From Oligoflexia bacterium (GTDB lineage: Bacteria; Bdellovibrionota; UBA1018): 64,000 nt of DNA. Numbering within the stretch: position 1 is the first letter of the stretch; each line of letters opens with the position of its first letter. The DNA lies in contig JARLHE010000016.1 of NCBI GenBank assembly GCA_031292385.1, positions 1 to 64,000 of the forward strand, read 5' to 3'. The notes beneath the pieces were generated by a model, which saw nothing but the letters and a program-made list of their open reading frames with translations, did not search any database and had not been told where the DNA came from. A program made the translations under genes and the position numbers. Positions 42,870-46,445 of the stretch are shown one piece after another.

Positions 42870-42947
42870 TTTTCATGTGACTTGTTGAGTTACTTAAATT
42901 GTCTAAAAGCCTGAACCCATGAAGGGTTCTCAAAAGGGGGAGCATTG

Positions 42948-44147
42948 ATGCTCGCGTTTCGTTCTCCGTTGGTGGGTGAAAGCCTTGCGATCCAAAACGT
43001 CCTTAAGACCATCGAAAAGGTCTCCCAGACAGACAGCACCGTACTGATTACTGGCGAGAGTGGGACGGGCAAGGAACTTTTCGCTAGAGCTATCCACGAG
43101 GCTTCGCCTCGGGCCGGAAAAGCTCTGGTTGTCGTTAACTGCGGAGCGATTCCGCCGGAACTTCTCGAAGCCGAGCTTTTTGGCCACGTGAAAGGTGCTT
43201 TCACGGGGGCGGTTCAGGCCCGCCAGGGACGCTTTGAGTTGGCGCATGGCGGCACGATCTTCCTGGATGAAGTAGGCGAGCTGCCGCTTCATCTTCAAGT
43301 CAAACTTCTTCGCGTCATCCAAACCCGTACCTTCGAAGCGGTCGGTTCTTCTAAGACCGTCGAAGTCGACGTTCGGATCATCGCGGCGACGAATCGGGAT
43401 CTCGAGGAAGCGGTTCGCGACAAGGAATTCCGCGAAGATCTTTACTATCGTTTGAATGTGATCCCGGTGAGGATTCCTTCGCTGCGCGAGCGCAAGAGCG
43501 ACATTCCGCTTCTCGTGAATCATTTCGTACAACAGTTCAATCAGATCACCGGTCATGCCGTTGAGGCTCCGAGCGGAGCGATCATGGATGCCCTTTTGGC
43601 CTACGATTGGCCGGGCAACGTGCGCGAGCTCGAGAATTTGATGGAGCGGATCGTGATCCTCAAGGGTCAGGGCAGCGTCGATTTGGGCGATCTTCCGCAT
43701 CGCTTGTTCCAGAAGTACACCGAAAGCCGCCCGAGCGGCGAAGGCGCCACGGCGGAGTGGGAATTTCCGCGCATGGTGCTTCCGCAACAAGGCTTGGATT
43801 TGAAATCGATCGTTGCCGCCTTCGAAAACCACTTGGTGGATCAGGCGTTGGCCCGCACCAACGGGAACAAGAATCGTGCGAGCGAGCTCTTGCAGATGAA
43901 TCGCACGACGTTGGTCGAAAAGCTGCGTAAGCGCGGCATGATCGTTCCGGCCGCCCAAAGCAGGGCGGAAGCGATGGCGGAAGTTGCCGAAGCGATCGCA
44001 TCGAACCAAGTGCCAACCGGTGCGACCACGGGCGCCACGATCAATAATGGCGGTAATAACGCGAACACGAACCCGACGGCGGGAAATATCGGCTCGGTCA
44101 ATCCGACGCCGATCAATCCGACTCGCGGTTTCGAGCCGAACGTTTAA
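42948..44147 (+). CDS. Receiver-less sigma-54-dependent transcriptional activator
   Basis: About 399 residues from the ATG at 42948, preceded by GGGGGAG. The AAA+ domain starts almost at the N-terminus: Walker [18 protein letters not shown] near residue 40, sigma-54 contact motif GAFTGAVQARQG, GGTIFLDEVGELPLHLQVK as Walker B, and [18 protein letters not shown] Fis-type DNA-binding helix pair contains NRASELLQMNRTTLVEKLRK near residue 300. A 70-residue Gly/Asn/Thr-rich tail (INNGGNNANTNPTAG) is unusual for the family. With no receiver or sensory domain it is probably always competent, or controlled by a partner protein. Targets are unknown. Confidence 0.9.
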   Translation: MLAFRSPLVGESLAIQNVLKTIEKVSQTDSTVLITGESGTGKELFARAIHEASPRAGKALVVVNCGAIPPELLEAELFGHVKGAFTGAVQARQGRFELAHGGTIFLDEVGELPLHLQVKLLRVIQTRTFEAVGSSKTVEVDVRIIAATNRDLEEAVRDKEFREDLYYRLNVIPVRIPSLRERKSDIPLLVNHFVQQFNQITGHAVEAPSGAIMDALLAYDWPGNVRELENLMERIVILKGQGSVDLGDLPHRLFQKYTESRPSGEGATAEWEFPRMVLPQQGLDLKSIVAAFENHLVDQALARTNGNKNRASELLQMNRTTLVEKLRKRGMIVPAAQSRAEAMAEVAEAIASNQVPTGATTGATINNGGNNANTNPTAGNIGSVNPTPINPTRGFEPNV

Positions 44148-44175: not shown

Positions 44176-44203
44176 GGGAGCCGGAAACGGCTCCCTTTTT
44201 TTT
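44176..44203 (+). terminator. Rho-independent terminator after the activator gene
   Basis: A perfect 8-bp GC stem (GGGAGCCG / CGGCTCCC) with a GAAA loop is followed by eight T residues. It lies 29 bp after the stop at 44147 and would end transcription of the sigma-54 activator. Confidence 0.93.
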
Positions 44204-44224
44204 CGGGCATCGGGCATCGGGCAT
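44204..44224. repeat. Three tandem copies of CGGGCAT
   Basis: Exact 7-bp tandem repeat right after the terminator T-run and just before the stop of the minus-strand four-helix-bundle gene. It might mark an insertion or slippage scar. Confidence 0.8.
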
Positions 44225-44228
44225 CGAG

Positions 44229-44525
44229 TTAACTTTGAACCAGTTTGAAGAGATGCGCGCCTAGCGCGTCAGCTCGGGTGCGAAGCGTTTCCAGATTTTC
44301 CTCGAGATCGATGATGGCTTGAACTTCCCTAAGTGATGCGAATGCGATGACGTAAAACCGCTTACGGTCTTTTCGGCTTGAGCGTGCCGAACCCTCTGAC
44401 AGGTTAAGCGCCACGCTGCTGCTCGCTCGGAGCAACTGATCTTTGAGATAGCTTGGCAGCGGTTTGCGTTTGCAGTCTCGGTGGAGCTGCACGGCTAACT
44501 GATAAATTCTGAAATTTTTGAGCAT
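44229..44525 (-). CDS. Four-helix-bundle protein (S23 / 23S rRNA intervening-sequence family), copy A
   Basis: The product has 98 residues. MLKNFRIYQLAVQLHRDC and LLRASSSVALNLSEGSARSS, followed by FYVIAFASLREVQAIIDL, match the four-helix-bundle family found in 23S rRNA intervening sequences and as stand-alone genes; the Avd accessory protein of diversity-generating retroelements has the same fold. Function of stand-alone members is poorly known, and RNA or protein binding is suspected. Its divergent partner at 44629 is about half identical. AAGGAG lies 16 bp before the ATG at the edge of the shared palindrome. Confidence 0.83.
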   Translation of the reverse strand: MLKNFRIYQLAVQLHRDCKRKPLPSYLKDQLLRASSSVALNLSEGSARSSRKDRKRFYVIAFASLREVQAIIDLEENLETLRTRADALGAHLFKLVQS

Positions 44526-44541
44526 AAAATCGAGGCTCTCC

Positions 44542-44614
44542 TTGTTTTTGGTTTTTTAAAAAATTCACGTCTCGCTCGGGCGTGGACGTGAATTTTTTAA
44601 AAAACCAAAAACAA
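44542..44614. repeat. 30-bp-arm palindrome between divergent four-helix-bundle genes
   Basis: Arms 44542-44571 and 44585-44614 are perfect inverted copies with a 13-nt loop (44572-44584). An additional CTCC/GGAG pair lies just outside with a one-base offset, so each ribosome-binding site abuts its arm. The arms are AT-rich (TTTTTTAAAAAA core), unlike the surrounding DNA. Confidence 0.93.
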
Positions 44615-44628
44615 AGGAGATAAAAACC

Positions 44629-44925
44629 ATGCTCAAAAATTTCAGAACATTCGATCTCGCTGTGCAGCTTTACCGAGGCTGTGAACAGGTCCAAGCCAAA
44701 TCGCTTCTCAAAGATCAGTTGCTCAGAGCGAGTCTCAGTATCGTGCTCAACACGTCAGAAGGCTCAGCAAAGCCCACGGCTAAAGATCGCAGAAGGTTTT
44801 ACGGAATCGCTCTCGGCAGTTGCCGGGAGGTTCAAGCGCTTCTCATGCTCTTAAAACAGGATGCGCTCTTTCAGCTATCCGACCAGGTAGGTGGTTGCTT
44901 GTACAAACTCACGCACAGCCACTAA
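44629..44925 (+). CDS. Four-helix-bundle protein (S23 family), copy B
   Basis: This 98-residue paralogue of copy A on the opposite strand has MLKNFRTFDLAVQLYRGC at the N-terminus, then LLRASLSIVLNTSEGSAKPT and RRFYGIALGSCREVQALLML. It keeps the family SEGSA turn and helix 3 signature. AAAGGAG is placed 9 bp before the ATG. The pair with its inner palindrome looks like an inverted duplication whose coding parts have diverged while the 5' arms stayed identical. The molecular role is unknown. Confidence 0.83.
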   Translation: MLKNFRTFDLAVQLYRGCEQVQAKSLLKDQLLRASLSIVLNTSEGSAKPTAKDRRRFYGIALGSCREVQALLMLLKQDALFQLSDQVGGCLYKLTHSH

Positions 44926-44979
44926 CTCACCCAGAACCCGAGCCGGGCCCGGTTTCCTGTTTCCCGCTGACCGCCCCTG

Positions 44980-45528
44980 TTATTCCACCACCGCGGTGCC
45001 GATTTTAACGTACGGATTCCGCACGACTCCATCGAGACCCGGCTGATGGGTGATCGACGCGGGAGTTCCCGAGGTGATTTCAAAAATGCCGTCGCTTCCC
45101 GAATCGAGCTCGACGAAGACGTCGTAGGGGAATTTTTCCGCGAAAATGGTCACGTGAAGCGTCGGGTGGCCCCAGCGGGTGGTGATTTCGCCCATCGGAA
45201 AGTTCGGGTTTTCGGCCGTGAAGTAATGGCAAGTCCCATCGAAATCGCCGCCCAAGGCGCCTTGGAACGACAGCGATTTCAGCTTGCCGAGCTGGTTGCG
45301 CGCGGGCTCGGAGACGAGCGCGGCGGCGCGGAAGGTGTTGCCATTCACTTCATCCGAACTCAGGGGCTTCAAATCGACGAAGGTGATCGAAACCTGATCG
45401 GGACAGCTGGAGACATCGAAGTCCGATTCCGACGCCCAAACCGAGTGAGCCGAAGCTAAGCCAGTCAGTAACGTCGTAATCACAGAAACCCGAGTAACTA
45501 GAACCCTGCTTATTCTCTTCGTAATCAT
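44980..45528 (-). CDS. Exported protein of unknown function
   Basis: This 182-residue protein has an N-terminal signal peptide (about residues 1-33, cut after SVWA) and a beta-rich mature domain with two cysteines (SSCPDQVS and GTCHYF) that could form a disulphide. No family is recognised. It lies about 100 bp beyond the mlaD-like stop on the same strand, so it might be the last gene of that operon, but the spacing makes independent expression equally possible. Confidence 0.58.
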   Translation of the reverse strand: MITKRISRVLVTRVSVITTLLTGLASAHSVWASESDFDVSSCPDQVSITFVDLKPLSSDEVNGNTFRAAALVSEPARNQLGKLKSLSFQGALGGDFDGTCHYFTAENPNFPMGEITTRWGHPTLHVTIFAEKFPYDVFVELDSGSDGIFEITSGTPASITHQPGLDGVVRNPYVKIGTAVVE

Positions 45529-45629: not shown

Positions 45630-46445
45630 TTATTTCTGGGAAGCGGCCTTTTGGTCGGCTTCTTTGATGGTCTGACGCACGAGGTTGCGAACAATCCGGT
45701 TCCGATTCGCTTCGCCCATCAAGGCCTTGGCGTTGTCATAGAGGCCCGGGTCGTTGATTACCGCGCCAAGCGTTCCAGTTCCGTTATTGATCTTGTCCGT
45801 GATGCTTTCGATGTTTTTGACGATCTTTTTCAGCTTGAAGTCATCCATCTGGTGATTGAGCTTGTCGGTGGCCTCGGAGAGGTTCTTCGCGCTGGTCGCC
45901 ATGCCTTGAAAGAACTTCTCGCTTCGGTGCTCGGCCTCGAACTCTTTCAAGAGGTGGTCGAGCGAAACGGAGATGTTGTTGAGAGAGGCCATGAGTTGGT
46001 CGCCCTGGCTCAGGAATTGGGAAAGGCTTTTGCCGGGCTGGACCTGGATCACGGAATCTTCCGGAAGTTTGGGTTTGTCTACGGATCCGGCGCTGACGGA
46101 GATGAACTTGTCGCCCAATAGGCCTTGGGTCGCGATTTCGGCAAAGGAGTCGGTTCGGATCCAAGCGCTGGCTTCTTTGGAAACATTCAGACGGATGCGG
46201 ATGTCGCGTTCTTTGTCGTCGAAGCCGATCTGGTCGACGGTGCCGATGTTCACGCCGTTCAGAACGACTTTGGCGCCGACGATCAGGCCTTCCGTATTCT
46301 GCAGATGAACCGCGTAGTGCGAGGTGCGCGAAAGCAGGTTTTCGGCGCTTCCGAGAACCAGGATAGCCGCCATCAAAAGGCCGACGCCTAAGGCGACGAA
46401 GATGCCGACGCGAAATTCGTTCTCAAGTTGTTTGGCTGGATTCAT
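45630..46445 (-). CDS. mlaD: MlaD/MCE-domain lipid transport protein
   Basis: This 271-residue protein is anchored by one N-terminal helix (VGIFVALGVGLLMAAILVLG, about 13-32). The MCE domain at about residues 38-115 includes NTEGLIVGAKVVLNGVNIGT and ATQGLLGDKFISVSAGS. The C-terminal half is helical with coiled-coil character, typical of MlaD proteins that form the periplasmic hexameric ring handing phospholipids to the MlaEF complex. The start overlaps the MlaF gene end by 4 bp. Confidence 0.9.
   Translation of the reverse strand: MNPAKQLENEFRVGIFVALGVGLLMAAILVLGSAENLLSRTSHYAVHLQNTEGLIVGAKVVLNGVNIGTVDQIGFDDKERDIRIRLNVSKEASAWIRTDSFAEIATQGLLGDKFISVSAGSVDKPKLPEDSVIQVQPGKSLSQFLSQGDQLMASLNNISVSLDHLLKEFEAEHRSEKFFQGMATSAKNLSEATDKLNHQMDDFKLKKIVKNIESITDKINNGTGTLGAVINDPGLYDNAKALMGEANRNRIVRNLVRQTIKEADQKAASQK

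Follow-up and report, generated by a model that had tools for sequence, protein, structure and literature searches.

The window, which is the whole stretch of 64,000 nucleotides of an Oligoflexia genome that was analysed, contains two divergent genes of the S23 family (PF05635, 23S_rRNA_IVP), each encoding 98 amino acids, which flank a perfect palindrome with arms of 30 bp (Table 1). The two products, designated L type and S type, score 56.7 and 58.2 bits against PF05635, above the curated cut-off of 33.8, and therefore belong to the family. The original prediction of two S23 genes pointing apart, with proteins of about half identity, was confirmed by the PF05635 and TIGR02436 matches and by an identity of 55% between both proteins. 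The L type is recognised by two extra residues ahead of the last helix, and in a tree the C-terminal part of the window L gene clusters with the L-type members of other pairs. The AlphaFold model of the S protein consists of four helices (pLDDT 96.6) with the fold of a four-helix bundle. Its best Foldseek matches, 2GSC and 2RLD (TM mostly 0.74–0.80, E about 1e-3), are solved S23 members, both proteins of unknown function. None of the PADLOC defence profiles matched the S23 proteins of the window.

Table 1. Coordinates of the paired S23 genes, the palindrome and the shared ends in the window.
Feature	Position	Strand	Basis or remark
Left end of dispersed unit, CGGGCAT heptamer repeats	44204..44228		Directly after terminator-like T-run
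S23-family gene, L type	44229..44525	-	PF05635 3.1e-15; TIGR02436
Outer inverted-repeat zone, L coding start	44468..44525		76% complementary to 44629-44686
L-gene ribosome-binding site GGAG	44538..44541	-	Sequence; read-through RNA fold
Left palindrome arm	44542..44571		30/30 complementary to 44585-44614
Spacer, asymmetric, 13 nt (TCGCTCGGGCGTG)	44572..44584		Between arms
Right palindrome arm	44585..44614		30/30 complementary to 44542-44571
S-gene ribosome-binding site AGGAG	44615..44619	+	Sequence; pairs with left side in read-through RNA fold
S23-family gene, S type	44629..44925	+	PF05635 1.1e-15; TIGR02436
Outer inverted-repeat partner, S coding start	44629..44686		Pairs with 44468..44525
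Right end of dispersed unit, GAGCCGG... and CCCGCTGACC motif	44926..44981		Common to C6, C9 and C21 copies

The arms between the genes are identical, as had been claimed. Their inverted-repeat score of 30 compares with at most 11 in dinucleotide shuffles of the intergenic region, and the palindrome is far beyond chance. As a correction, inverted similarity extends beyond the arms, and about 530 bp of the unit form an imperfect palindrome of 69%. In other elements the spacers measure 11–15 nt and frequently contain a related C(A/T)CGCC...GGCG-like sequence, and among four compared copies of the window genome (G000) the spacer orientation is identical. All Rfam matches to the hairpin (plant microRNAs and similar) remained below the gathering score, and an Rfam identity was rejected, these matches reflecting only the long stem.

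Both ribosome-binding sites abut the arms and each is predicted to pair with the complement of the other via a one-base bulge. RNA reading through the unit has a predicted folding energy of −126 kcal/mol versus −48 for shuffles (z = −18.8), while no excess structure was predicted for RNA begun within the right arm. As a structural prediction, the idea that read-through RNA hides both ribosome-binding sites is thus supported, both sites being paired in the fold. No sigma-70 promoter-like site was found within the window unit, and transcription is presumed to start inside the palindrome.

On each side of the G+C stem in the window lies a T6 run, and a terminator-like site was called at 44564-44586, as would suit a palindrome acting mainly as an intrinsic terminator in both directions, protecting both genes against transcription from outside. 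The T-run is missing, however, in two copies of G036 (C174 and C61) and in G009 and G039, whereas the perfect pairing is seen repeatedly, and so is the burial of the ribosome-binding site. Termination was rejected as the general function of the palindrome because the T-runs are not conserved among elements, and as its main function it is improbable. Another terminator-like stem with T-run is located at 44178-44203, 3' of the regulator gene, and the unit starts directly afterwards. Since the copy at C43:118738 is likewise preceded by a T-run, insertion may favour terminators.

Copies in the window genome and gain at the locus

At least five other related copies or fragments, with differing neighbours, are present in G000. 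The S gene has three extra copies with 93–99% identity on contigs C6, C9 and C21, a relative of the L type lies at the C43 end and truncated ones are found on C9 and C34, and C15 carries a lone, more distant S23 gene. The window palindrome recurs in this genome at C9, C6 and C34 only, all of them S23 loci. Four contigs (C6, C34, C21 and the C43 end) terminate in or at the palindrome; as the assembly breaks there, the copy count in this draft genome (94.7% complete) is a minimum, and the C6 and C34 copies could be two halves of one copy. At the end of C21 (L011), the contig enters a long poly-G tract at the palindrome, which is probably artefactual and due to assembly or sequencing.

A brute-force search for terminal inverted repeats and a target duplication of the window copy and its siblings gave results no better than shuffles, and therefore only ends derived from alignment of multiple copies were used. 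The approximate shared ends of the window copy obtained in this way are rich in short repeats. On the left, similarity to the C43:118738 and C9 copies begins at about 44218; on the right, it stops at about 44977–44981 in the copies on C6, C9 and C21 and in solo right-end fragments on C31, on C18 and at C9:29978. Left ends in this genome consist of variable CGGGNNN heptamers and right ends of a hairpin motif that is short and GC-rich. On C15, a 16-bp palindrome of the type GGTCGCCNNGGCGACC is repeated several times next to the lone S23 gene (L012, ~1820–2320). These palindromes lie near an apparent ParA-like gene, and none is present in the window.

The window unit is flanked by a regulator gene (42945-44147) and mlaD (45630-46445), and it shares this interval with an additional gene (44980-45528). 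The regulator gene and mlaD are convergent neighbours in relatives of the same family, and in seven of them the gap, delimited by alignment ends, measures about 105–330 bp and holds no S23 gene. None of the 11 relatives read has an S23 gene at the syntenic locus. Judged from this comparison, which is between genera, the S23 unit was gained at the window locus.

Paired elements, ends and target duplications in relatives

Homologues of S23 were found in 27 of the 97 genomes searched and were absent from 70, with uneven numbers per genome (10 matches in G001, 12 in G059 and 23 in G070, many of the latter broken). A search for the same inverted arrangement in other genomes had been proposed as a check. 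It returned, from 11 genomes, 19 divergent pairs in which both genes keep their 5' ends, and all 19 have a near-perfect palindrome scoring above all of its own shuffles, with arms of 14–68 bp, 0–2 mismatches and a spacer of mostly 11–14 nt. Single genes without a palindrome had been named as an argument against a functional unit; this was borne out in part, as the hairpin is absent at the single copies L088, L094, L099, L104 and L124, but no pair that retains both 5' ends is without one, and an upstream hairpin also accompanies the single genes L012, L103, L119, L121 and L122. Often one gene has decayed while the palindrome and the ends are kept (L010, L018, L091 and L092). Many of the 23 copies in G070 are broken by stop codons, the family apparently dying out in this genome, where the copy L114 has T8 on each side and the ends GACTCTC/GAGAACC.

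The flanks of S23 units are richer in repeats of short period (5–9 nt) than control segments (Mann-Whitney p = 2e-17, with segments of the same locus not fully independent). Imperfect edge repeats of 5–9 nt, of the CGGGNNN, CRGTWT and ACAGTA types, were seen in G000, G001, G009 and G044. The plasmid and phage collections searched gave no match to the element, the viral contigs searched contained one weak relative only, and a wider scan of genome contigs yielded one locus, in a Halobacteriovoraceae genome.

The ends are best defined in G059, in which about 25 places, including deletion derivatives, match one element (L113:1400-2200) and have the left end GGTTCTTTCTAAATAA and the right end AAATAAAAGAAAGAGC in common. 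Target duplications were read off the flanks of these copies: exact 8-bp repeats are present at L113 (AATTTCCG), L155 (CTATTTCT) and L160 (TAAATTCT), the flanks of L152 share 10 bp and those of L156 agree at 7/8 positions. The copies L152, L155, L156, L158 and L160 are internally deleted, MITE-like derivatives of about 184–474 bp with both ends kept. The homologous site in G067, of the same genus, measures about 116 bp versus about 913 bp in G059. The excess corresponds to an element of about 799 bp, and the G067 site was therefore read as empty. G039 has a 957-bp unit in two copies of 97.7% identity, with inverted ends and 7/8 duplications at both. The proposal of a mobile two-gene unit gained support from the dispersal of copies, from an empty site and from the target duplications of a relative.

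The ends in G059 and G039 are presumably of the ISL3 type. ISL3 transposases, intact in G000 and G070 and as fragments in G059, were matched to no element ends, and none was found in G039. For the Y1 transposase, one weak match was obtained in G000 and none in the copy-rich genomes G009, G039 and G070. Dependence on this enzyme (as in IS200/IS605 and REP-RAYT) was rejected because its presence does not track copy number. The ends differ among genomes and the core is common.

The pairs could instead be a host gene family, not mobile, that has grown by recombination and inverted duplication. The head-to-head arrangement seemingly arose more than once (the S/L pairs and a separate group in G036, G014 and G082), and no target duplication was detected for the window copy, both of which would agree with such a history. 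The exactly shared ends and the 8-bp duplications of the G059 copies, the empty homologous site in G067 and the absence of S23 from the syntenic locus in 11 relatives argue against it, and this reading is disfavoured as very improbable.

Evolution of the arms and of the S23 proteins

The arm sequence varies among elements, and within each element the arms remain self-complementary. Two copies in G036 differ at five arm positions and by indels, each mirrored exactly in the opposite arm, and two copies in G001 have identical 30-bp arms and oppositely oriented spacers. Template switching between inverted repeats homogenises arms and flips spacers (PMC8604942; see also PMC8794818), and both the arm identity and the spacer inversion observed here fit template switching during replication. 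The same process, and the inversion between the G001 copies, could make the palindrome a mutational by-product of nearby head-to-head duplicates, homogenised with no selected function. Spacer length and the related tip sequence nevertheless recur across genomes, several single genes retain an upstream hairpin, and in G000 the palindromes of C43, C9 and C6 are about 97% identical despite a synonymous divergence of about 0.5–0.9 between the S genes of these copies. A mere by-product is accordingly considered unlikely.

Homogenisation extends into the genes. Among nine S/L pairs, residues 1–20 have a within-element likeness of 0.71 and 0.63 versus 0.51 and 0.41 for the same type in other elements (permutation p ≤ 5e-5). 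The last quarter (residues 71–95) has the opposite pattern, being closer to the same type elsewhere. In a tree of the C-terminal two-thirds, in which columns are few and many forks open, 11 of the 14 S-type rows group together (SH-aLRT 94) and the L-type rows form two groups. By these comparisons, S and L are two old paralogue types that make up most pairs, with N-termini homogenised within each element. In the zone corresponding to the outer inverted repeat of Table 1, most other pairs have a second block of nucleotide identity at codons 7–15 (69–92% identical codons at 7–13), separated from the palindrome by the diverged codons 2–4 (31%), which a simple decay of identity with distance fails to explain. 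This block of inverted identity, within both coding starts, was seen for the pairs in L085-L111 and is weak in the window copy.

Between copies of the same genome, dN/dS was 0.03–0.18 in the families measured, with dS up to about 1, and 0 for one near-identical pair; L118 versus L119 was left out as too diverged. The window L gene compared with the copy at the contig end C43:118752 gave 0.085, and the S gene among its four copies in G000 0.04–0.11. The S23 proteins have been kept by purifying selection while synonymous sites changed freely.

Such strong selection could equally mean a host function. The pair would then be cargo, host-useful S23 genes spread by ordinary insertion sequences, in which the palindrome serves local regulation and S23 has no role in movement. 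The ends and 8-bp duplications in G059 and G039 do resemble a standard DDE transposon, and the ends vary between genomes around a common core. On the other hand, the pair and the palindrome stay associated whatever the ends or the genome, decay of one gene often leaves the palindrome and the ends in place, and the distribution is patchy (27/97). Selfish spread therefore fits better than a host trait, and the cargo explanation, a serious possibility, is given somewhat less than even odds.

Interpretation and comparison with known systems

The preferred reading, with a probability of roughly 0.68 for the explanation as a whole, is that the window holds one copy of a mobile two-gene element, probably non-autonomous and about 0.7–0.8 kb long. 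From left end to right end it would comprise the L-type S23 gene, the perfect palindrome and the S-type S23 gene. From the genomes compared, its dispersal, its gain at the locus, selection on its proteins, the conservation of the palindrome despite varying arm sequence, the N-terminal homogenisation of the pairs and the target duplications of a relative are established, and it is a conserved core with changing ends. The element would be moved by an enzyme acting in trans, which in at least two relatives is probably a transposase making 8-bp target duplications. RNA reading through from host genes would fold the unit into one hairpin and bury both ribosome-binding sites, so that only RNAs begun inside the palindrome would be translated. 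Arm identity would be maintained by polymerase template switching, in which one arm is copied into the other. The S and L proteins probably assemble into a mixed ring of Avd/S23 type, which would bind the hairpin nucleic acid of the element and may help its maintenance or spread; we infer this role, as well as the enzyme moving the window copy.

For decades, S23 proteins have been familiar from the intervening sequences (IVS) of 23S rRNA, with no function and with mobility only guessed. Dispersal, the empty site, target duplications, selection and the hairpin make S23 function open to tests of binding, expression and movement, and the old idea of the family as mobile DNA now has a testable form. 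The elements also provide a clear example, in bacteria, of palindrome arms and adjacent codons that are rewritten inside each individual copy.

The window proteins have the sequence family (PF05635, TIGR02436) and the four-helix fold in common with the S23 members known already, including 2GSC and 2RLD. The S23 pair with palindrome as a dispersed element may be new, as no description was found in the literature searched, which was short on subscription journals and preprints.

For the IVS of Coxiella, an S23 ORF, heptamer repeats near this ORF and past proposals of mobility have been described (PMC4990558). The IVS of Leptospira and Coxiella thus resemble the window unit in having an S23 ORF in a small element, inverted repeats, heptamers and proposed mobility. 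They differ in that they reside in 23S rRNA, where a stem encloses a single ORF and RNase III excises the element, whereas here the hairpin lies between two genes; the window palindrome is central and does not form terminal inverted repeats around an ORF. A link with 23S rRNA had been suggested, together with a search for the arm sequence elsewhere, including 23S rRNA genes. This link was not supported, since rRNA models gave no match at 20 S23 loci and the palindrome copies in G000 are confined to S23 loci.

Avd of diversity-generating retroelements belongs to the same broad family of four-helix proteins as S23. A tie to a reverse transcriptase, as this likeness might suggest, found no support: none was detected in the copy-rich genomes G009, G036, G039 and G070, and G000 has one distant RVT_1 match, on another contig than the window. 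Dependence on reverse transcriptase was rejected, its presence not tracking S23 copy number. Quite unlikely, and more speculative than the preferred reading, is that the S23 pair and palindrome constitute a mobile-element class of their own, in which a mixed ring of two Avd-like proteins would bind the hairpin and recruit host replication or repair or a borrowed transposase. Movement would then depend on S23 and not on an encoded recombinase, and the 23S rRNA IVS would be a special case.

Parallels also exist with non-autonomous DDE transposons and MITEs of ISL3-like type. The G059 and G039 elements have inverted ends beginning GGTTCTTTC and GGCTCTCCC, and resemble such transposons in their 8-bp target duplications and internal deletion derivatives. 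They differ in carrying the conserved S23 pair and palindrome, and the window copies are without recognisable ends of this kind. In IS10 and IS50, the ribosome-binding site is masked by a hairpin in read-through RNA alone, and the same masking is predicted for the window hairpin. The hairpin of these insertion sequences is placed at the element end and guards the transposase, whereas that of the window is central and would guard two S23 genes.
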